Part shown: positions 14,862 to 58,749 of the stretch, piece by piece
How positions within the stretch are numbered: position 1 is the first letter of the stretch
How the letters are laid out: each line of letters begins with the position of its first letter
Translations under genes and position numbers: made by a program
Origin: a virus
Direction: 5' to 3' (one strand)
Length of the DNA: 58,749 nucleotides
IMG/VR virus record: IMGVR_UViG_3300037487_001109
Location: 1 to 58,749 of that record
Notes under the pieces: model-generated
The model's database searches: none
What the model saw: only the letters and a program-made list of their open reading frames with translations
What the model was told of the DNA's origin: nothing

Positions 14862-14887
14862 CTGGAATAATCCAGCAAAAATTGGAG
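14862..14887 (+). promoter_or_regulatory. Leader element 1: hairpin plus AAATTGGAG
   Basis: Hairpin CTGGA-ataa-TCCAG (14862-14875), then AAATTGGAG (14879-14887), whose GGAG is the Shine-Dalgarno sequence for the ATG at 14897. First of a family of such leaders in this block. Confidence 0.65.
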
Positions 14888-14896
14888 AATAATAAA

Positions 14897-15187
14897 ATGA
14901 ATAATATAAATAAAACCGAAGTCGGCCCCGAGATGCGCGAGAATATACTGGAAAGAATGCGTGATATCTTTTATTCAAATGAAAGGTATTATGATGGGTG
15001 TAACGCAGAAGTACTGCGTGATATCCAAGATAACGCGACAGTAAACCAACTGCTCTCTATTTTATTTACCATGCAAGCTGGAAGATTCTTTAAACTTACT
15101 GCACGCGATTATCTAACCCACACTGTATTCCTAAACCAATCGGGAATGGTAATAGGAATAGAGACCGATGGTTATACGCACTCTTAA
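14897..15187 (+). CDS. Early protein, unknown function
   Basis: A 96-residue protein. ATG 14897 is chosen because it lies 9 bases after the GGAG of leader 1; an in-frame ATG at 14834 lies in the predicted promoter. Helical, mildly acidic; the centre reads ENILERMRDIFYSNERYYD and NQLLSILFTMQAGRFF. First gene of the early block. No family recognised. Confidence 0.65.
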   Translation: MNNINKTEVGPEMRENILERMRDIFYSNERYYDGCNAEVLRDIQDNATVNQLLSILFTMQAGRFFKLTARDYLTHTVFLNQSGMVIGIETDGYTHS

Positions 15188-15188
15188 A

Positions 15189-15242
15189 CTAATGCATTAG
15201 ATATCAGCTCTGCTGATATCGCTGGATTAATTTAAAATTGGG
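15189..15242 (+). promoter_or_regulatory. Leader element 2: palindrome, hairpin and AAATTGGGG
   Basis: A 12-bp palindrome CTAATGCATTAG (15189-15200) runs into hairpin GATATCAGC-tct-GCTGATATC (15200-15220), then AAATTGGGGTAA (15235-15246) before the ATG at 15251. The 19 bases TGGATTAATTTAAAATTGG (15223-15241) recur exactly at 15673-15691. Confidence 0.7.
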
Positions 15243-15250
15243 GTAAACAA

Positions 15251-15685
15251 ATGGATACAAATAAATTACGAGAAGTAGTCGTGTCTTTTAAAAAAACAAA
15301 TAAAACTTACTCAAGCATCAGGCGTGCTAGTGATGTCGCTGCAGTAGTACGTAAATGCTTAATAACAAATGCTAAAGAGAACTTTATAGCGCTATACCTA
15401 GATGGAGCGCACGCAGTTATAGCCTATTCAGTAGTCAGTGTAGGCCTACAGAATGCAACACAAGTACACCCAAGAGAGGTGTTCCAAGCTGCTATACTCT
15501 GCGGGGCACGCGCATTAGTAGTGGCGCATAATCATCCAAGTGGCTGCCTTGAACCAAGTAACGCAGACAAAGAAGTAACAAAAAATTTAAAATCAGCCGG
15601 AGATTTGCTAGGTATAAAACTATTAGATCACGTGATAGTTACTGAAACGTCAGAATACAGTTTTATGGAGAGTGGATTAATTTAA
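15251..15685 (+). CDS. RadC-family JAB/MPN+ protein
   Basis: A 144-residue protein matching the C-terminal domain of RadC. The metal-binding JAB signature is complete: AHNHPSGCLEPSNAD (HxHP, seven residues, SxxD, about residues 97-111), with the upstream NATQVHPREVFQAAILCGA block and the final LGIKLLDHVIVTE strand. The N-terminal helix-hairpin-helix of full RadC is missing. RadC domains are common on phages and mobile elements and have been linked to recombination or anti-restriction, but no enzyme activity is firmly established. Expression is likely controlled by leader 2. Confidence 0.88.
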   Translation: MDTNKLREVVVSFKKTNKTYSSIRRASDVAAVVRKCLITNAKENFIALYLDGAHAVIAYSVVSVGLQNATQVHPREVFQAAILCGARALVVAHNHPSGCLEPSNADKEVTKNLKSAGDLLGIKLLDHVIVTETSEYSFMESGLI

Positions 15686-15696
15686 AATTGGAGAAA
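15673..15696 (+). promoter_or_regulatory. Leader element 3: AAATTGGAGAAA without its own hairpin
   Basis: The conserved TGGATTAATTTAAAATTGG spans the stop of the RadC gene (TAA 15683-15685) and supplies AAATTGGAGAAA (15685-15696) for the ATG at 15702. No strong stem is seen directly upstream; the sequence there is coding. Confidence 0.6.
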
Positions 15697-15701
15697 ACAT
15701 T

Positions 15702-15956
15702 ATGACAATTGAGAAGACTGAGAGCGAATTAATACAAGAAGCATGGGAAGTACAGAATGCGTGTAACCTATCCGGAGTGGTGCATAGTTTTAGCGCTGCA
15801 ATATCTAGGCTGTGGACTATATACCAGACCGAAAATAAAAAATTCAGCACTACGGATATAGCCGAGCATATAGTCAGTAAATTATATGCGAGCAAAATCA
15901 TGTCATTATCCGGAGACCTGCCAATTGATCTATCAAGCTATGGTATTAAATATTGA
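15702..15956 (+). CDS. Conserved phage protein, unknown function
   Basis: An 84-residue protein. The motif EVQNACNLSGVVHSFSAAI followed by a C-terminal SKLYASKIMSLSG is of a type seen in small phage and plasmid proteins of unknown role. All-helical, no membrane segment. Start ATG 15702 follows leader 3 by about 8 bases. Confidence 0.75.
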   Translation: MTIEKTESELIQEAWEVQNACNLSGVVHSFSAAISRLWTIYQTENKKFSTTDIAEHIVSKLYASKIMSLSGDLPIDLSSYGIKY

Positions 15957-15966
15957 TTTGATTTAG

Positions 15967-16024
15967 TCAGAGACCTGACAGGTCTCTGATTAAATTAGTT
16001 CAATTATGGGCTAATTAAATTGGA
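15967..16024 (+). promoter_or_regulatory. Leader element 4: long hairpin, second hairpin, AAATTGGA
   Basis: An 11-bp inverted repeat TCAGAGACCTG-a-CAGGTCTCTGA (15967-15989), then AATTAG/CTAATT (15993-15998 with 16011-16016), then AAATTGGA (16017-16024) before the ATG at 16035. Neither stem is followed by a U-run, so it is not a standard terminator. Confidence 0.7.
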
Positions 16025-16034
16025 TAACAAAAAC

Positions 16035-16553
16035 ATGGAATTATTAATTAATCACACTAGCGAATCAAATGCTTATGAAGTTGCTGACTATCCATATGGG
16101 TACACGGCGAGATGTAAGATTAGATACTGGATTGAAACAACTAAGCACAAGCAAAGATCCTGCAGGCAGACCACCAATCCAAAAACCGGCCGATGGAATA
16201 AGCCGCAAAAATCGACCTACAGTGATTTAGTGGTATTATTTATTGAAGATGATACAGGGCACGTAAAACGCACTAGTTATAATATTCAATATGGTGAATA
16301 TCCTACATGGAAAACTTTTTTAGAGAAGTATCAATCTGTACTAGTATCACCTTATGAAATAGCACGGATAAAATACGGTAACGCGATATTTAGGGCACGT
16401 GAAATCCTGTATATTAAATCATTGGAACACTGCGCTTCCGGTAATATCTATGATGTACCGCAGAATTTTCGCGGTAAAATATCAACGGAAGCACTGTTAT
16501 TGGCCGCGAAAGAATCGGGATATGGCTTTAAATCAAGTTTAATGGAGGCATAA
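16035..16553 (+). CDS. Conserved phage protein, unknown function
   Basis: A 172-residue protein. ATG 16035 is preferred to an upstream TTG at 16020 because of the leader spacing. The N-terminal half has the pattern ESNAYEVADYPYGYTARCKIRYWIE and QTTNPKTGRWNKPQKSTYSD, which I recall from small proteins of phages and plasmids of Proteobacteria whose role is unknown. The C-terminal part is helical. The stop overlaps the next ATG (TAATG). Confidence 0.75.
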   Translation: MELLINHTSESNAYEVADYPYGYTARCKIRYWIETTKHKQRSCRQTTNPKTGRWNKPQKSTYSDLVVLFIEDDTGHVKRTSYNIQYGEYPTWKTFLEKYQSVLVSPYEIARIKYGNAIFRAREILYIKSLEHCASGNIYDVPQNFRGKISTEALLLAAKESGYGFKSSLMEA

Positions 16554-16774
16554 TGGAACCGATTAAAACATTGCAAGAGAGGTTATTAGCTGCAGGAGTT
16601 GGAATAGATCATCATTGTAGTGATTTATACTTCCCAGTCAGTGAAATCAGTAATAAGATACTGAGAGAGTATACGCTTGAATCTGCTATCAAGCCGAGTG
16701 TAGGCGCCTTTATCTGTAATATATCCAAAGCGCCTTGGTATGAGGTGCCTTTTCATTACAGTAAGACAGAATAG
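16553..16774 (+). CDS. Small early protein, unknown function
   Basis: A 73-residue protein translationally coupled to the preceding gene (TAATG overlap, GGAGG in the preceding codons). It has no hairpin leader of its own. Sequence: helical start (IKTLQERLLAAGVGIDHH), then mixed, ending APWYEVPFHYSKTE. No family recognised. Confidence 0.65.
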   Translation: MEPIKTLQERLLAAGVGIDHHCSDLYFPVSEISNKILREYTLESAIKPSVGAFICNISKAPWYEVPFHYSKTE

Positions 16775-16781
16775 TTAATAT

Positions 16782-16844
16782 GATAGCAGGCTTTAAAACC
16801 TGCTATCGCTTAACTAGTCAATCACGGCTAGTAAATTGGAGTAA
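16782..16844 (+). promoter_or_regulatory. Leader element 5: two hairpins and AAATTGGAGTAA
   Basis: Stem GATAGCAGG/CCTGCTATC (16782-16790 with 16799-16807), second stem ACTAG/CTAGT (near 16813-16832), then AAATTGGAGTAA (16833-16844) before the ATG at 16850. The last twelve bases are a perfect complement of the loop of the hairpin at 18013-18040. Confidence 0.7.
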
Positions 16845-16849
16845 ATTAC

Positions 16850-17080
16850 ATGAAAGCAGGCAAAGCACTGACGGAGATACCAAGATTTAACATAGTTAAA
16901 ATAATAACTAATGTGATTAATAACGCACTAAGCATTGAGCACGAGATACTTAAAACTGACATTATTCAATCTGAGATTAGAATCAGCTATTTGAATGCAT
17001 GCAAAATCCATGGTGCTGATACTATCCGCGTAGAATTAGCACGGTTGTACACACTGGAAGAATTGTTAATAGATGCATAA
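16850..17080 (+). CDS. Small early protein, unknown function
   Basis: A 76-residue helical protein (FNIVKIITNVINNALSIEH, IRVELARLYTLEELL) behind leader 5. No membrane segment or known motif. Its ribosome-binding site pairs at all 12 positions with the anti-leader loop, making it the best predicted target of that RNA. Confidence 0.65.
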   Translation: MKAGKALTEIPRFNIVKIITNVINNALSIEHEILKTDIIQSEIRISYLNACKIHGADTIRVELARLYTLEELLIDA

Positions 17081-17111
17081 TTTAAATTTAATAAAATTGG
17101 AGATTACTAAT

Positions 17112-17801
17112 ATGGAGCGTTTTAGAGACTTTCATCCCTCATCATGGGATTCAAAAGCTAACTATGTAGGCCAGTCAGATCACAATCATTGGTATGTTTT
17201 TAATATAATGAAGACAAGGGACGCGGATTTACTAACAGAGTCCAATTGGGATTATATCTGTAAAGAGCTTGAACCGGATGAAATAGCAGGCTGCGAGGTG
17301 CATACGTTCGGTCATTGGGCATGTGGTCATTATGATTTGATACTTATTCATCCTTGGCATAAAAAACTATTGGAAAAGGCACGAGACTTGGAAAAGCAGT
17401 TAGCTAGTTATCCTGTTTTAAACGAAGCTGATTATAACGCTAGATGTGAAATCGAGATTGATCGGCAATGGGATGACTTCGCACGTGACGATTTTATATC
17501 AGAATTATCAAAGTATACCGAGCTGGATTTAACAGAGTACAGCTCCGAGCAAATAGATGCTCTCTATTATTTCCTGCAAGAGATATCTGGCACCTATAGA
17601 GGTAGTTTTACTGAAGAGCCCAACTTTCATATAGAAGAGATTTGTCGTATCTACGGCACCACAATAACTAAAGAAGTCTATATGCCATGTATATTTGAGC
17701 GCAAAGTCAAAAACTTTCCAATTTCAGATAGCATGCTAGACCGTGTAATGAATCCAAAAAAGTATCACGAGCCCATTAATCAGATTAAATTATTTGAATA
17801 G
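17112..17801 (+). CDS. Conserved phage protein, unknown function
   Basis: A 229-residue protein. ATG 17112 lies 9 bases after AAATTGGAG (17094-17102); an ATG at 17073 is in frame but has no such site. The pattern DADLLTESNWDYICKELEPD followed by VHTFGHWACGHYDLILIHP is one I recall from proteins of phages and plasmids of Gram-negative bacteria, always of unknown function. The C-terminal half is acidic and helical. Last gene before the non-coding RNA-like region. Confidence 0.75.
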   Translation: MERFRDFHPSSWDSKANYVGQSDHNHWYVFNIMKTRDADLLTESNWDYICKELEPDEIAGCEVHTFGHWACGHYDLILIHPWHKKLLEKARDLEKQLASYPVLNEADYNARCEIEIDRQWDDFARDDFISELSKYTELDLTEYSSEQIDALYYFLQEISGTYRGSFTEEPNFHIEEICRIYGTTITKEVYMPCIFERKVKNFPISDSMLDRVMNPKKYHEPINQIKLFE

Positions 17802-17811
17802 TTAGGTTTGG

Positions 17812-17930
17812 CTTCCAGTTGATCTCTACCTTTCACCTGGAAGTCACTAGTTAGCTAATATCAACTAACCAAATTGGATATTTTAAAATAAAAATTACCT
17901 GTTCAAAATATGAACAGTTAAAAATTGGAC
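17812..17930 (+). other. Two orphan hairpin leaders without genes
   Basis: First: CTTCCAG/CTGGAAG (17812-17818 with 17837-17843), GTTAG/CTAAC (17850-17854 with 17865-17869), then AAATTGGAT (17871-17879). Second: CTGTTCA-aaata-TGAACAG (17899-17917), then AAATTGGAC (17922-17930). Neither is followed by a start codon at ribosome-binding distance. They may be remnants of lost genes or part of a structured RNA. Confidence 0.6.
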
Positions 17931-18012
17931 GCTATCTCCCTAGATAAACAGCCATAATTACGCTGACTTATGAAAAAGACCCTTCCAAATGTCCTGTTTT
18001 GTCCCTTAATCT

Positions 18013-18040
18013 AAACTAGGTTACTCCAATTTCCTAGTTT
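18013..18040 (+). ncRNA. Anti-leader hairpin (putative trans-acting small RNA core)
   Basis: A perfect 8-bp stem AAACTAGG/CCTAGTTT (18013-18020 with 18033-18040) presents the 12-base loop TTACTCCAATTT. The loop is the exact complement of leader 5 (AAATTGGAGTAA), pairs with leader 2 at 12 positions with one G-U, and with leader 3 at 11 of 12. It lies directly before a strong terminator, the usual layout of a 3'-derived small RNA. Complementarity and stem are seen in the sequence; the regulatory role is inference. Confidence 0.55.
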
Positions 18041-18043
18041 GCC

Positions 18044-18088
18044 CCTCTTCCAGTTTAGACTTATGAATTAAACTGGAAGAGGTTTTTT
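18044..18088 (+). terminator. Strong Rho-independent terminator of the early block
   Basis: A 14-bp perfect stem CCTCTTCCAGTTTA/TAAACTGGAAGAGG (18044-18057 with 18069-18082) with an 11-base loop, followed by TTTTTT. Confidence 0.92.
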
Positions 18089-18599: not shown

Positions 18600-19040
18600 A
18601 TATTTCATAAAAAGACAAAACTGCACTTTCCAAATACAGGTCGGCACACTTTTGTATTTTTTAGAAAAAGCTGAAAGTGCCTTATATTCGATTTGGCCAA
18701 AAAGTGTGCCGACCTACCTGTTTGTGTGCCGACCTAAAACAGGGTCGGCACACCCCTGTAGCCCATTGAAATCATTAACGAATCCAGGAATAAAACAACT
18801 TCGTGTGCCGAGTGCCGACCTATTTCCAAACTTTTCCTTATATATAGTAATAAATAATACTATTGTTCCAGTAGTATATCTTATATATATATCTTCATAT
18901 ATGTTATTTATTAAAGAATAGTCGGCACACCGGCACAGACACACTTTTTCCTTGGGCATATCAACCGCTTACCCCCTGTGCCGACCCCTGTGCCGACCCC
19001 ATTTTAGGTCGGCACAGTCGGCACAGAACAAATTGTTCTA
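18600..19040. other. Candidate replication origin: iterons around an AT-rich core
   Basis: Twelve copies of GGTCGGCACA or its complement TGTGCCGACC occur here: 18639, 18705, 18725, 18743, 18804 (partial), 18811, 18921, 18930 (partial), 18977, 18989, 19007 and 19017. They flank an almost pure A+T stretch (18830-18920). The outer pair 18638-18653 and 18699-18714 forms a long inverted repeat. A palindrome AGAACAAATTGTTCT (19025-19039) overlaps the 3' end of the primase-helicase gene. Iterons plus AT-rich DNA beside a replication initiator gene is the classic layout of an origin. Confidence 0.7.
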
Positions 19041-21728: not shown

Positions 21729-21855
21729 ATATTTTATCTTGCAGTAGAGTTTGAATCGTGCCTAATATGCTTGCATAGCTTACAGGTGGTCTAATTACAT
21801 TAGCCAAGAGCAGGCTTGTTAGCAAGTACCTAAATTTTAATTGGAGAAAATATTT
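21729..21855. promoter_or_regulatory. Divergent promoter gap with a hairpin leader
   Basis: A 127-bp gap between the leftward replication unit and the rightward accessory operon. It holds a hairpin CTAAT-tac-ATTAG (21791-21803) and the leader AATTGGAGAAA (21839-21849) for the ATG at 21856, a further member of the early-leader family. I see no convincing -35/-10 pair on either strand. Confidence 0.5.
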
Positions 21856-25398: not shown

Positions 25399-25491
25399 AT
25401 GGCATGTAGATGTTTCGGCGTATGTACTTGTGGTGTGGCTTTAGGGCCTGCTACACCGTGCTGTGCTCCTCACTGGAGTGAAGATATTTAA
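25399..25491 (+). CDS. 30-residue Cys-rich peptide
   Basis: ATG 25399 to TAA 25489-25491, overlapping the next ATG (TAATG). The product has six cysteines in 30 residues (MACRCFGVCTCG..., then PCCAPHW). No signal peptide. Could bind zinc or serve as a leader peptide for the PLA2-like gene. Evidence is the coupled stop/start and the cysteine pattern only. Confidence 0.4.
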   Translation: MACRCFGVCTCGVALGPATPCCAPHWSEDI

Positions 25492-25763
25492 TGAGCGACT
25501 CAGAGCCGATACGCTGTGGAATTTGCCCCATAACATTTGGTGGCTGGGCACTAGATGCCTGTGCCTGGCACGATGCGGCCTATACACGGGGCTCATGGGC
25601 ACAGAAAAACCTTACAAGAGAAGCTACCGACCTGCACTTCTATAATATGCTATTAGAGCTCTCCAAACGTGGCCGCTGTAGGGCCGGGAAACGTGTGCAG
25701 GCGTGGTTGATGTACCAGACTGTACGCGCTCTGGGTGCCCCTTTCTGGGAAGGCAAAGAATAA
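25491..25763 (+). CDS. Phospholipase A2-like protein
   Basis: A 90-residue protein. The motif LDACAWHDAAY (about residues 21-31) matches the catalytic CxxHDxxY helix of phospholipase A2 with the His-Asp pair, and the following helix has REATDLHFYNMLLE, matching the second conserved Asp. A Gly-containing loop (TFGGWA) precedes it. This minimal layout resembles parvoviral and bacterial PLA2 domains. It could hydrolyse membrane phospholipids at entry or lysis; there is no signal peptide. Confidence 0.65.
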   Translation: MSDSEPIRCGICPITFGGWALDACAWHDAAYTRGSWAQKNLTREATDLHFYNMLLELSKRGRCRAGKRVQAWLMYQTVRALGAPFWEGKE

Positions 25764-28725: not shown

Positions 28726-29938
28726 TAAAGAATTGAATCACAAAGAAAGAGCCCACGCCCCATTTGGTGGCTCAGTAGCAGCACGCAGGATTAACTGTAC
28801 CGGCAGTTACTTCCTGGAGTCCCAGCTCCCCCCACAGCCAGCTTCCGCTGCAGCTGACGAAGGCACTGAAGCACATGAATGTGTGGAGTGGGCACTTGCA
28901 GATTTCCTCTATCGCAAAATCGAAGGTGAGGGTATAGATTTAGTAAAGCCAGTACACTTTAACAAGTACGCGCAGTTCGCGGAGGATTATGTCGACACCG
29001 TATGGACAAAGGCACTTCATAGCTCTATTACAGGAAAGTCGTATGCTATCGAGACGATTGTTACTATTAATGAGTCTCTGGGTATGTACGGGCCTTGTGA
29101 TTTTGCTTGCGTTTACTCAGACGAGCGAGGCCGTAGTTGTGCTATTGTTATCGACTATAAACATGGCTACAACTTTGTTCCTGTTGAAAAAAACGACCAG
29201 CTTGCACATTATGCTTGCGGATTACGCGAAGATGTACGCAGAGCTGGCAAAGACCTCGAGTACATACGAGCTGCAATTTACCAACCTCGCGCAGGTGGTG
29301 AAACATATAGAGAGGTTACTTTCACCGCAAAGTTTCTGGACAGCTGGAAAAAGCGTGCAATCAAAGCCGCCGAACAAATTTTCGTTAGTAAAAAAGCGAA
29401 GTTCAAGTGCGGAGAATGGTGTAAATTCTGCAGAGCCAAGCCAGTCTGTAAAGCGTATGCTAAGCAACGAACGATAGAGACCCAGCTTAACCTCGTTGAC
29501 CACGCTACAATTGAACTGCCAAAAGTTGATATGCTCTCCCCAGAGCACATAGTTAAACTGGTGCTGCATGGGGATAAGCTTATAGACCTTGTTGAAACTG
29601 CAAAGAAGATAGCCTTTGATGGCTGTGCGGCCAACGGCGAGTTTCACGGTTTAAAACTCGTTGAGGGTCGTGGTAAACGTGGCTGGGATAAGGGCCAAGA
29701 TGAAGACGAGATTGCCACCCAGATGAAGCAGCACGGTATCAAGACCCCCTATAAAGAATCTCTCCGTGGTATTACGGAAATTGAAAAGGAGCTTAAAAAG
29801 TTAAAGCCTGAAGCACAGGCCAAAGAGCTCATGGACTGCTGGACTACAAAGTCAGTCCCCAAAATTCTAGTTGATTCGACTGACCCGAGACCGGCTGTTG
29901 CCTGTGCTAAGGATATGCTTGAAGCAATTGGAGATTAA
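28715..29938 (+). CDS. DUF2800 family PD-(D/E)XK nuclease (Cas4/RecB-like)
   Basis: A 407-residue protein. N-terminus GGSVAARRINCTGSYFLE and the GTEAHECVEWAL helix match DUF2800. The nuclease core shows MYGPCDFACVY (Asp) and VIDYKHGYNFV (Asp-x-Lys). A C-terminal iron-sulfur-type cysteine cluster is KCGEWCKFCRAKPVC plus an upstream Cys, as in Cas4. In phages it is encoded with DUF2815 and a family A polymerase and probably processes DNA ends for recombination-dependent replication. Confidence 0.88.
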   Translation: MTNNKELNHKERAHAPFGGSVAARRINCTGSYFLESQLPPQPASAAADEGTEAHECVEWALADFLYRKIEGEGIDLVKPVHFNKYAQFAEDYVDTVWTKALHSSITGKSYAIETIVTINESLGMYGPCDFACVYSDERGRSCAIVIDYKHGYNFVPVEKNDQLAHYACGLREDVRRAGKDLEYIRAAIYQPRAGGETYREVTFTAKFLDSWKKRAIKAAEQIFVSKKAKFKCGEWCKFCRAKPVCKAYAKQRTIETQLNLVDHATIELPKVDMLSPEHIVKLVLHGDKLIDLVETAKKIAFDGCAANGEFHGLKLVEGRGKRGWDKGQDEDEIATQMKQHGIKTPYKESLRGITEIEKELKKLKPEAQAKELMDCWTTKSVPKILVDSTDPRPAVACAKDMLEAIGD

Positions 29939-29964: not shown

Positions 29965-30657
29965 ATGGCTGAAAAGATAAGCAAACATAAAACATACGGA
30001 TTCGTGTACGGAATTTCCAACAAAACCCCGCTGGGCAGACTGGCATGGGTTAATCTGGTTACTCCAAAAGAATCTACTTTCCCAGTTAAAGAGGGCGATA
30101 AGGTTCCGGCACCACGCTATGAACTTACCCTGCTACTTAAGAAGAGTGACCCAAAGGTAAAGGCCTTTGTTGCAGAACTCGAGCTACAGAAAAAAGAAAT
30201 GGTTGAGCTCTTTAATGAAGGCAAGAAAACAAAGATTGGTATAGACGAAGTTATTAAGGATGGGGATGAGATGGATACAGACTCCTATCCTTTCTATGCT
30301 GGTAACTACTACATGGTGCCAAAGAAAGAACAGCGCCCTCCTATCTATGACTCAAATGTAGAGCCAATAGAACCCGGAGCTGTCATAGGCGGTATGCCTG
30401 GACTTTGTGTAGTTCGTCCAATCTGCACCTCTCATGGTATCAGCTACCAGCTGCTTACTGTGCAGCTTGGGAAAGATGATGGCGTGAGATTTGGCGGAGG
30501 AAAGTCTGACGCTAAAGCACTATTAACCGCATTAGGAGATGAAGATGATGCACCATTTGATGAATCTGCTGAAGAGACTCCTGTTAAAACTAAAGATGTT
30601 GTAGCCGGAAAAGCTAAAGCACAAAAAGGTCAGCTTAATTTAGATAAGTTGGCATAA
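29965..30657 (+). CDS. DUF2815 family protein (putative single-strand DNA-binding protein)
   Basis: A 230-residue protein. Pattern TYGFVYGISNKTPLGRLAWVNLV, a Lys-rich middle, YPFYAGNYYMVPKK, then PGAVIGGMPGLCVVRPICT, ending in an acidic tail (ALGDEDDAPFDE). DUF2815 proteins are predicted OB-fold single-strand binding proteins, and the acidic tail would recruit partners. The operon partner is the DUF2800 nuclease. The nearest GGAG is at the end of the upstream gene, about 30 bases from the ATG. Confidence 0.85.
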   Translation: MAEKISKHKTYGFVYGISNKTPLGRLAWVNLVTPKESTFPVKEGDKVPAPRYELTLLLKKSDPKVKAFVAELELQKKEMVELFNEGKKTKIGIDEVIKDGDEMDTDSYPFYAGNYYMVPKKEQRPPIYDSNVEPIEPGAVIGGMPGLCVVRPICTSHGISYQLLTVQLGKDDGVRFGGGKSDAKALLTALGDEDDAPFDESAEETPVKTKDVVAGKAKAQKGQLNLDKLA

Positions 30658-30664
30658 ACAAGTT

Positions 30665-30749
30665 TTCGTATTTTCACTCCAATTTTAATACGAGCGTCTT
30701 ACTAGGACGTTAAAACGGTTGGCTTAGCGGTAAAAGTAACCGCCCTTTT
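30665..30749 (+). ncRNA. Second anti-leader hairpin and following stems
   Basis: Between the DUF2815 and polymerase genes lie three consecutive hairpins. The first (TTCGTATT/AATACGAG, 30665-30672 with 30687-30694) has loop TTCACTCCAATTTT, whose ACTCCAATTT is complementary to AAATTGGAGT of the early leaders. The second is GCGTC/GACGT (30694-30710), the third GCGGT/ACCGC (30727-30743) followed by CCTTTTA, a weak terminator. It may be a small RNA or a structured polymerase leader. Confidence 0.45.
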
Positions 30750-30759
30750 ATCCCTCTTT

Positions 30760-33531
30760 ATGCAGCAAAAATCTTTCAACATAGATTTCCAAGCCACCCC
30801 CTTTACCGTCCACTATATTCAAGAACCATCCATGGCGAAAATCGCCATAGACCACTTGATGAAAAAGGATGTACTGTTTGCAATCGATATAGAAACAATG
30901 GCGTTGCCGCAATTCCGCACTATCAATAAGGCAGGCCTGTCCCCGCACCTATCTAAAGTAAGGTTGTTACAGGTTTTTGATGGCACCAACATTTGCGTCT
31001 TTGATTTGAACTGGTTTCCAGAAGCATCACTTCAGATGTTTGTGCCATTCTTATCTAGTAAACGCTTCGTAGCGCACTATGCTCTGTTTGAACTTCAAAG
31101 GTTTATGCAGTGGGGAGTAGTCGATATGAACATCCACTGCACCTTGTTACTGGCAAAGCTTATGTATCATGCGGTGGTGCCAGATGACGCAGGTATCTCA
31201 GTAAGCCTTGATTCTCTGGCTAAAGAACTTCTAAGTATTGACCTTCCAAAAGCCTGCCAAGTCTCAGACTGGGGTGTGGAGGATTTAACATATGAACAGA
31301 TTGAATATGCAGCTCTTGATACTGTTGTCTGTCTAAAGCTTGCTGAGAAACTTGTTAAAGGGTTAGACAAGTATGGGCTACACAGAATCTATAAGCTCAC
31401 AAAAGATGCCCAGCACCCAATTGCCGTAATGCAATTAAATGGGTTTAAGCTTGACGTTGAGGCCCATAGAGAGCTTATCCCACAGTGGATTGAAGATCTC
31501 GTGCCTGCCAAAAGAAAGGTACAAAAGATTACAGGTATTCAAAGTTTAACAGCGCCTAAGTTAGGTTTATGGTTAGAACAAAACCTTGACCCGGCTACAC
31601 TTGCCATGTGGCCGCGCACCGATAGTGGAAAGATGTCTACGTCTGCTGACACCTTTGCAGACTTCTCGTACCACGAGATAGTTAAACCGTTTTTAGAATA
31701 CCAAAAGCGTGCGACTCTTTGTTCAACGTTTGGGCAGACTTTAATTAATCAGGTTAATCCTATGACGCGTAGGTTACACCCTACATTTAAACTGTTAGGT
31801 GCTAGGACAGGCAGGCTTAGCTCCTCTGAACCTAATTGTTTTGACGCGGATACTGAGATTCTGACAGATACTGGTTGGATTAAATTTCCAGAAATTACAC
31901 CTGCATCTAGGGTGGCCCAGTGGGATGATGGTATAATAACATTTACCTATCCTCTTAACGTAATTAAACAAGCGTATACTGGGGATTTAGTAGTACTTAA
32001 AAATCAGCACATAGATATGGTATGTACTGCTGAACACAGGTGCTTGTTACAGAATAGACGTAGTAAAAAATACTCTGTTGTAAAGGCTATAGACTATCTA
32101 CTGGATGCTAAGCAATTACATGCTGGAGTTTACGGTGATATGCCTAAACTAGACACCAGCTTCCTCACAACTGCACAGATACAGTTACTTGTAGCTACGC
32201 AAGCTGACGCCCATTTTCGGGATGGTGGTATAGAGTTTAGATTTAGAAAGAAAAGAAAGAGCGATAGACTACTGCGGATACTTAAAGCTTTGAACGCTAA
32301 GTATACAACTGGAAAACGTGCAGATAAGGCCTACTCTTATAGGATATATAAATCAGACTTAGTTACATGGATTCGTAGTATACTAACTGATAAAAAGATA
32401 TTCGGTAAGTGGGTTCTGGATTTTAGCTATGAGCAATTACGTATATTCTGTAATGAGTTATTTTACTGGGATGGGCTGGTAGTAAGGCGTTCTAATTACG
32501 CATCCTCTATAGAGACAAACGCAGATTGGGCACAGATTGCATTAACTTTATGCGGGTATAGAGCTAAAAAGAGAATCTATAAATACGGCCCAGACAAGAC
32601 CAGTAATAGCTATCAACTTGATATTACACATAGAGATTATTCAGGAACAGCAAACGTAAGTAAGTCTATAATACCAGTTAAAAATCAGGAGGTTTATTGT
32701 GTCGAAGTACCGTCATCATACATTGTTATCCGTAGGAATGGTTGTACAGCTATTACCGGTAACTGTCAGAATATGCCTAGAAACAATGAAATTCGTAATA
32801 ATTTCATTGCTGAAGAAGGATGCGTATTCTTGTGCGCTGACTATTCGCAGATTGAGCTTCGTATTGCAGCTGAAATTAGCGGTGATAAACAAATGCTTAG
32901 CGCCTATAGAGAAGGCACAGACCTCCACGCCCTCACAGCAAGCAGAGTTCTTAACAAAGCAATCAAAGATGTTACAAAAAAAGAGCGACAAATCGGGAAA
33001 GCTCTCGGACTTGGGCTACTATACGGACTTGGGGCTAGGAAGTTCAGCCACTATGTCAAAAAAGGCTATGCTAGAGATGGGGTTAGTGTATCCGAATCAG
33101 AAGCCTTCGACTACATTGAGAGATACCGCGAAACCTATCATGGACTCAGAGACTGGCAAATCAACCAAGCCGAACGTTGTAAAACTAGTCTCCGCGCAAC
33201 TACTCCATGCGGTAAAATTAGAAAACTTAATGAGCTCAACTACTACGGTGGAGGGCTTAATGTCCCTATCCAAGGGGCGGCTGCTGAAGTAATGCTGTAT
33301 GCTCTGGTAAAGCTTGAAAAGGCTTTCCGGGGCATCGGTAAGCTAGTAAATTGCGTACACGATGAAGTGCTGATTGAGGTAAAACCATCTTCAAAGGATT
33401 TAGATTTACTAAACTGTAGGCTTATGATGCAGGACTGTATGACTGAAGCCTACCTAGAGGTATTCCCAAAGGGGATTACTAAGAATTTAGTAGAGGCCTC
33501 AGAAGGCAAAACATGGGCTACGGCAAAATAG
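30760..33531 (+). CDS. Family A DNA polymerase interrupted by an intein
   Basis: A 923-codon frame; mature length 614 residues. The 3'-5' exonuclease domain starts with AIDIETM (D43, E45) and includes YAALDTVVCL. Polymerase motifs after the intein: motif A DYSQIELR (694-701), motif B RQIGKALGLGLLYG (743-756), motif C VHDEV (866-870). No 5'-3' exonuclease domain. It copies the phage genome with the primase-helicase and SNF2 helicase. The residue equivalent to E. coli Phe762 is Leu751. No good ribosome-binding site precedes ATG 30760; ATG 30832 is an alternative. Confidence 0.92.
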   Translation: MQQKSFNIDFQATPFTVHYIQEPSMAKIAIDHLMKKDVLFAIDIETMALPQFRTINKAGLSPHLSKVRLLQVFDGTNICVFDLNWFPEASLQMFVPFLSSKRFVAHYALFELQRFMQWGVVDMNIHCTLLLAKLMYHAVVPDDAGISVSLDSLAKELLSIDLPKACQVSDWGVEDLTYEQIEYAALDTVVCLKLAEKLVKGLDKYGLHRIYKLTKDAQHPIAVMQLNGFKLDVEAHRELIPQWIEDLVPAKRKVQKITGIQSLTAPKLGLWLEQNLDPATLAMWPRTDSGKMSTSADTFADFSYHEIVKPFLEYQKRATLCSTFGQTLINQVNPMTRRLHPTFKLLGARTGRLSSSEPNCFDADTEILTDTGWIKFPEITPASRVAQWDDGIITFTYPLNVIKQAYTGDLVVLKNQHIDMVCTAEHRCLLQNRRSKKYSVVKAIDYLLDAKQLHAGVYGDMPKLDTSFLTTAQIQLLVATQADAHFRDGGIEFRFRKKRKSDRLLRILKALNAKYTTGKRADKAYSYRIYKSDLVTWIRSILTDKKIFGKWVLDFSYEQLRIFCNELFYWDGLVVRRSNYASSIETNADWAQIALTLCGYRAKKRIYKYGPDKTSNSYQLDITHRDYSGTANVSKSIIPVKNQEVYCVEVPSSYIVIRRNGCTAITGNCQNMPRNNEIRNNFIAEEGCVFLCADYSQIELRIAAEISGDKQMLSAYREGTDLHALTASRVLNKAIKDVTKKERQIGKALGLGLLYGLGARKFSHYVKKGYARDGVSVSESEAFDYIERYRETYHGLRDWQINQAERCKTSLRATTPCGKIRKLNELNYYGGGLNVPIQGAAAEVMLYALVKLEKAFRGIGKLVNCVHDEVLIEVKPSSKDLDLLNCRLMMQDCMTEAYLEVFPKGITKNLVEASEGKTWATAK
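31837..32763 (+). other. Intein in the DNA polymerase with a LAGLIDADG-like insert
   Basis: 309 codons from Cys360 (TGT 31837) to Asn668 (AAC 32761-32763), before Cys +1. Block A is CFDADTEILTDTGWIKF, block B CTAEHRCLL, and blocks F/G VYCVEVPSSYIVIRRNGC then AITGN. Between them are two LAGLIDADG-like helices (QIQLLVATQADAHF and LRIFCNELFYWDGLVV), here in the same frame as the splicing domain. It interrupts TGRLSSSEPN-CQNMP, a conserved polymerase site known as an intein target. Confidence 0.92.
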
Positions 33532-58294: not shown

Positions 58295-58749
58295 CTAGCC
58301 AGCTCCAAGTAGTGCTAATAGTGAACTTCCTGCGCTATGGTCTCCCTGGTCAAAGCCTATATTCCATCTATAGTCATATATTAAACCTGAAGGCACATAC
58401 TGCATATCTAATGCTGGGGAGCCAGCAGAAACTCTCAAGTCTCCGTTTGCTGGGTCTACTAATAAAGGGTTTGCTATAACATCACTATTACCCAGTACTG
58501 CGTTAGTAGCATTTGTAGTATTATTCCAAATGTTGCTTGCGAAGCTCATCGGCCTTGAAATATTATCACTAGTTACACCTGTAGTGCACCCGTTTATTAT
58601 ACATGCGCATACCACAGACCCCCCTCCAGCATTACAATCTATTCCTGTAGTGCAGTTAGTAATGGTACAGTTAGTTACGCTGCTATACGTGGATAGGCGC
58701 ATCCCGACCGTACATGCTCTAGCTATACAGTTGCTTATAGTAGTACACA
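58295..58749 (-). CDS. Tail spike, 3' part (continues at 977-1)
   Basis: The C-terminal part of the beta-helix spike, ending at TAG/TAA near 58295. An ATG at 58702 is internal to the full gene and is not a likely start. The segment has beta-helix sequence (VTNCTITNCTTGIDC, CACIINGCTTGV) and a C-terminal cap (GDLRVSAGSPALDMQYV, YDYRWNIGFDQGDHS). See the entry at 1-977. Confidence 0.8.
   Translation of the reverse strand, partial: CTTISNCIARACTVGMRLSTYSSVTNCTITNCTTGIDCNAGGGSVVCACIINGCTTGVTSDNISRPMSFASNIWNNTTNATNAVLGNSDVIANPLLVDPANGDLRVSAGSPALDMQYVPSGLIYDYRWNIGFDQGDHSAGSSLLALLGAG
58602..58749. repeat. Right copy of the 148-bp terminal overlap
   Basis: Matches bases 1-148 except at 58623 (C, versus A at 22). 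Confidence 0.95.

Follow-up and report, generated by a model that had tools for sequence, protein, structure and literature searches.

Two intergenic hairpins of a single phage, with unrelated stems and a common 10-nt loop core, expose loops complementary to a leader motif that precedes about seven genes of the same phage, each hairpin being followed by a terminator or a terminator-like stem. The loop-leader pairing is well supported, and we lean, with modest confidence, towards a reading of these sequences in which the two sibling elements would block ribosome binding at the leaders as a group, by base pairing. The window, i.e. the whole stretch of DNA analysed, comprises 58,749 bases and is the whole phage record; since it ends in a terminal direct repeat of 148 bp (1-148 and 58602-58749, one mismatch), it is probably a complete genome.

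A previous, sequence-only reading had described a hairpin with its terminator at 18013-18088, and pairings of its loop with the leaders of gene 16850 and the RadC-like gene and with those at 15685, 14879, 16017, 17094 and 21839. Direct reading and folding found the hairpin and terminator as described, and every one of these pairings could be read directly from the sequence (Table 1). The stem of hairpin 1 consists of 8 Watson-Crick pairs and one G-T, and is separated by two bases from a strong terminator with a 15-bp stem (18044-18058/18068-18082) followed by T6 at 18083-18088. The region of the hairpin and terminator folds with a z-score of -6.1, and 8 bases of the loop have a predicted accessibility of 0.64, as against a background median of 0.03.

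Table 1. Leaders, hairpins and terminators of the window.
Feature	Position	Strand	Remarks
Probable early block, seven genes	14897-17801	+	motif leader in 6 of 7; gene 16553 without motif
Leader AAATTGGAG of gene 14897	14879-14887	+	8-9 contiguous pairs with loop 1
Leader AAATTGGGGTAA of RadC-like gene 15251	15235-15246	+	12 pairs with loop 1, one G-U
Leader AAATTGGAGAAA of gene 15702	15685-15696	+	11 of 12 pairs with loop 1
Leader AAATTGGA of gene 16035	16017-16024	+	8-9 contiguous pairs with loop 1
Leader AAATTGGAGTAA of gene 16850	16833-16844	+	exact complement of loop 1
Leader AAATTGGAG of gene 17112	17094-17102	+	8-9 contiguous pairs with loop 1
Orphan AAATTGGA site, no gene behind	17871-17878	+	in 3' UTR preceding hairpin 1
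Second orphan AAATTGGA site, no gene behind	17922-17929	+	in 3' UTR preceding hairpin 1
Hairpin 1	18012-18041	+	stem TAAACTAGG/CCTAGTTTG (18012-18020/18033-18041), loop TTACTCCAATTT (18021-18032); read directly and folded
Intrinsic terminator immediately 3' of hairpin 1	18044-18088	+	read directly and folded
Leader AATTGGAG of gene 21856	about 21839-21846	+	8-9 contiguous pairs with loop 1
ATTGGAG, exonuclease/SSB junction	29927-29933	+	about 31 nt 5' of SSB start; possible target or chance
Hairpin 2	30665-30694	+	stem TTCGTATT/AATACGAG, loop TTCACTCCAATTTT (30673-30686); sequence search and folding
Short hairpin and terminator-like stem GCGGT/ACCGC, tail CCTTTTATCC	30695-30752	+	3' of hairpin 2

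The second hairpin, missed in the previous reading, has a loop nearly identical to that of the first and lies directly 3' of the SSB gene (stop at 30657) and 5' of the DNA polymerase gene (30760). Its terminator is weaker than that of hairpin 1 and the 93-nt fold of the element is unremarkable overall (z-score of just -0.96); the predicted accessibility of its loop is 0.90 (background median 0.03). When the two stems are aligned on the loop, 5 of the 7 inner base pairs are changed on both sides with pairing and loop retained, which is the pattern expected from selection for an exposed loop. One hairpin might conceivably descend from the other. The earlier proposal of a hairpin RNA complementary to a leader family is supported, and gains strength from hairpin 2 as an independent further case of this loop. 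Its proposed source, the end of the early transcript, has to be widened to include the end of the exonuclease-SSB pair, where hairpin 2 stands.

As to the leaders, the motif AAATTGG occurs in front of six genes (14897, 15251 encoding the RadC-like protein, 15702, 16035, 16850 and 17112), with 0.17 such leaders expected; gene 21856 has AATTGG, and the motif is missing from gene 16553 although it lies within the block. GG and ATG are separated by an almost constant distance, as in a Shine-Dalgarno sequence, and GGAG accounts for part of the motif. Other genes of the phage use an ordinary AAGGAG, so that TTGGAG is not the standard Shine-Dalgarno sequence of the host, and an unusual host anti-Shine-Dalgarno sequence making the leader an ordinary one was rejected on this ground. 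Moreover, the calculated pairing of the usual anti-Shine-Dalgarno sequence with the motif leaders is weak (-3.1 to -6.4 kcal/mol), which, together with the use of AAGGAG elsewhere, leaves the AAATT part unexplained by it. The block would be early judging from its position and gene content alone, and 'early', 'repression' and 'timer' are to be taken as putative descriptions. Intergenic hairpins without a T-run precede several AAATTGG sites (15199-15221, 15966-15989, 16782-16807, 17812-17844 and 17899-17919), and hairpin and leader look as if they formed a repeated cassette.

The calculated pairing of the loops with the motif leaders reaches -10 to -14 kcal/mol at five of seven, that of loop 1 with the leader of gene 16035 being weak (-7.5). 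Out of 67 gene starts, which we selected ourselves from the open reading frames, those of the motif genes score near the top. A partial leader match is also seen for the primase gene on the minus strand (-11.1 with loop 2). The strongest single pairing of loop 2 (-14.2), over about nine bases, is with gene 25491 at its start region (25470-25500, UGGAGUGAA), which could be a real additional target or chance among 67 starts. Regarding the specificity of the loops, CTCCAATTT occurs twice on the plus strand (18024 and 30677; 0.33 expected), both times within a hairpin loop. Among 454 hairpins of the window on both strands, only hairpins 1 and 2 pair by 8-mers with at least six leaders (8 and 6 of 67 for the top two hairpins), and the hairpin ranking third, which pairs with 5, is itself a leader in antisense. 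When the window was screened in the same way together with 97 further phage loci, 1.4 Mb altogether, no hairpin but these two passed.

In the mechanism that we favour, each element consists of a stem-loop and an intrinsic terminator and exposes the anti-leader loop ACTCCAATTT, which would be displayed by any RNA that ends at the terminator in question. By pairing with the common leader AAATTGGAG, the loops would hide the Shine-Dalgarno sequences of some seven of the phage's own genes, and the 8-12 paired bases over GGAG would be in competition with the 30S subunit. Negative feedback would come from element 1, with which the probable early operon ends. Element 2, which closes the exonuclease-SSB unit on its 3' side, would rise when the replication genes are transcribed and so add repression at that point. 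The elements are probably small RNAs derived from 3' UTRs, and from their layout we infer that such RNAs may exist in free form, act in trans and repress. A search 5' of hairpins 1 and 2 revealed no promoter that was recognisable or stood out, so a free RNA would probably need processing. In addition, the orphan sites at 17871 and 17922 could occupy the loop of hairpin 1 in cis, masking it until the RNA is cut. Against the mechanism stand this possible occupation in cis, the lack of the motif at gene 16553, the weak pairing at 16035, the limited room for pairing inside a loop of 12 nt, and the weak terminator and unremarkable fold of element 2. Reading the hairpin on the minus strand, as a decoy of the leaders, was not adopted, since both T-runs are on the plus strand and the flanking genes are on the plus strand as well.

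Relatives were searched for in IMG/VR, and for two queries also in GTDB genomes, with RadC, gene 17112, the primase, the polymerase, the terminase, a polymerase alignment and the polymerase pair of the window and a distant syntenic contig, L019, as queries. Just two relatives were found: a 5.6-kb fragment whose terminase is 91% identical, covering the region of neither hairpin, and L019 itself, the sole syntenic relative, whose genes around the polymerase share 37-47% protein identity. L019 has the terminator between SSB and polymerase without the loop hairpin, and neither a loop hairpin nor ATTGGAG leaders are present in it; a hairpin screen of the whole contig returned almost exclusively A/T-rich low-complexity matches. 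An exact scan of IMG/VR with the hairpin core gave six matches, none with an extended stem by eye, and their loci hold no AAATTGGAG on the matched strand.

Some features of the neighbouring replication genes may be recorded here. The ATG of the polymerase (30727-30762) follows the terminator-like stem without a Shine-Dalgarno sequence, and likewise in L019 (8930). The polymerase of the window contains an intein-like insert (31837-32760), which begins with CFDADTEIL after SSSEPN and ends with GN before CQN, where that of L019 is uninterrupted. Furthermore, the interval between the transglycosylase and primase genes holds, at 18640-19025, a group of GTCGGCAC/GTGCCGAC repeats in both inverted and direct orientation, with ten exact copies here and only two elsewhere, which appears iteron-like and is a possible replication origin.

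Among the alternatives, hairpin and terminator could be cis elements of the downstream genes, forming an attenuator whose loop senses leader-type RNA. Both hairpins precede genes lacking a Shine-Dalgarno sequence, the transglycosylase (18102) and the polymerase (30760), which start no more than about 20 nt past the terminator, and the polymerase of L019 also starts directly after its terminator; this common order makes the attenuator a fair rival. Nevertheless, the terminator of L019 does without the loop hairpin and no alternative fold joining the loop hairpin and the terminator is predicted, and we regard this explanation as unlikely. A purely cis role, in which the loop in the 3' UTR would pair with leaders of the same mRNA and tie its ends together, affecting stability or the order of translation without any free small RNA, seems to us unlikely too, if only a little more so. 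It agrees with the expectation that a single mRNA of some 3.2 kb would carry hairpin 1 together with six leaders, and with the failure to find a small-RNA promoter, but hairpin 2 has just one doubtful target (29927) in its own unit and the leader of gene 21856 lies beyond terminator 1.

The loops could also be a coincidence, i.e. terminator-side hairpins which happen to hold CTCCAATTT, with the leader as a favoured weak Shine-Dalgarno sequence spread by duplication of the cassette. Two leaders have the longer stretch GGATTAATTTAAAATTGG in common, which suggests duplication, and under loose criteria (any of seven 8-mers complementary to at least three leaders, with a 7-bp stem) 187 of 7262 shuffled genomes (2.6%) reach two or more hairpins, so that the strength of the claim depends on the leader consensus being given beforehand. 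With CTCCAATTT planted among the genome's own flanks, however, a stem of at least 7 Watson-Crick pairs arises around it with a probability of 0.0045, and one of at least 8 pairs in 0.15% of trials; by arithmetic from those figures, about 0.003 such hairpins are expected on both strands, and two or more would arise by chance with a probability of about 5e-6 under this 9-mer criterion. As the other 97 phage loci also lack such a hairpin, coincidence appears improbable. Finally, that the leader motif serves a protein, be it a repressor like T4 RegA or a Shine-Dalgarno-cutting nuclease like RegB, with the loop complement being secondary, is very improbable: although T4 RegA and RegB do target early leaders, RegB cutting at GGAG (PMC3014915), a Pfam and PHROGs scan that covered the products of part of the genes showed nothing RegA- or RegB-like, and two loops carrying the complement would be left unexplained.

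Group repression by the two elements can be compared with several known systems. OppZ and CarZ of Vibrio cholerae are stable autoregulatory small RNAs derived from 3' UTRs through processing by RNase E, with known feedback (PMC7398697), in which an RNA from the 3' end of an operon pairs with its own transcript and inhibits translation. Like them, element 1 comes last in the block that it would control, and both elements are placed after the final gene of an operon and before its intrinsic terminator, although terminator 2 is weak; complementarity to the translation starts of its own operon was found for element 1, element 2 having just the doubtful site at 29927. The differences are that the present elements belong to a phage, that many leaders share one motif and that a second copy exists at another operon. 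In Gram-positive bacteria, LhrC and other small RNAs with C-rich loops (RsaE, RNAIII, SprD and FsrA) block Shine-Dalgarno sequences by pairing of the loop motif, and LhrC occurs as multicopy siblings (PMC4132741). Here, too, an unpaired C-rich motif complementary to the Shine-Dalgarno sequences of several targets was found, CUCC and not UCCC. Whereas those RNAs are host genes with UCCC motifs, the phage motif CUCCAAUUU is longer and fits a family of leaders dedicated to it in its own genome, and Rfam revealed no homology to a described RNA family, giving no match at the gathering score and weak chance hits only.

Among phages, the c4 antisense RNA of P1 and P7, which controls ant, in the target operon ant/icd, for immunity, is likewise a phage RNA that blocks a phage ribosome-binding region, with the target complements probably in loops (PMC12197685). 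In contrast to c4 with its target ant, about seven leaders and two RNA elements are involved here; Rfam gave no hit for the hairpins in this respect either, and no antirepressor was recognised in the block. T4 RegA and RegB, for their part, resemble the proposed elements in that they shut off early genes as a group, acting where translation of these genes starts, but are proteins, the phage elements being RNA. In the open-access papers searched, a dedicated leader family with two sibling loops within one phage was absent.

A wider picture, which we put forward tentatively as one possible interpretation of the sequence, is a phage-wide RNA regulon in which AAATTGGAG would be the leader code of the early genes and the two sibling RNAs, with their unrelated stems, would be released from the early and replication operons to bring about an RNA-only early-to-replication switch, as an RNA counterpart of T4 RegA. 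If group repression is true, this phage would silence a block of its own genes with one loop matched to one leader, doubled in two operons, while the phage small RNAs encountered in the review consulted (PMC12197685) have host genes or individual phage genes, ant for instance, as their targets. Hairpin and leader would then constitute a portable pair of repressor and target that can be tested directly, and other uncultivated phages could be searched by the rule that a loop complements a recurring leader.
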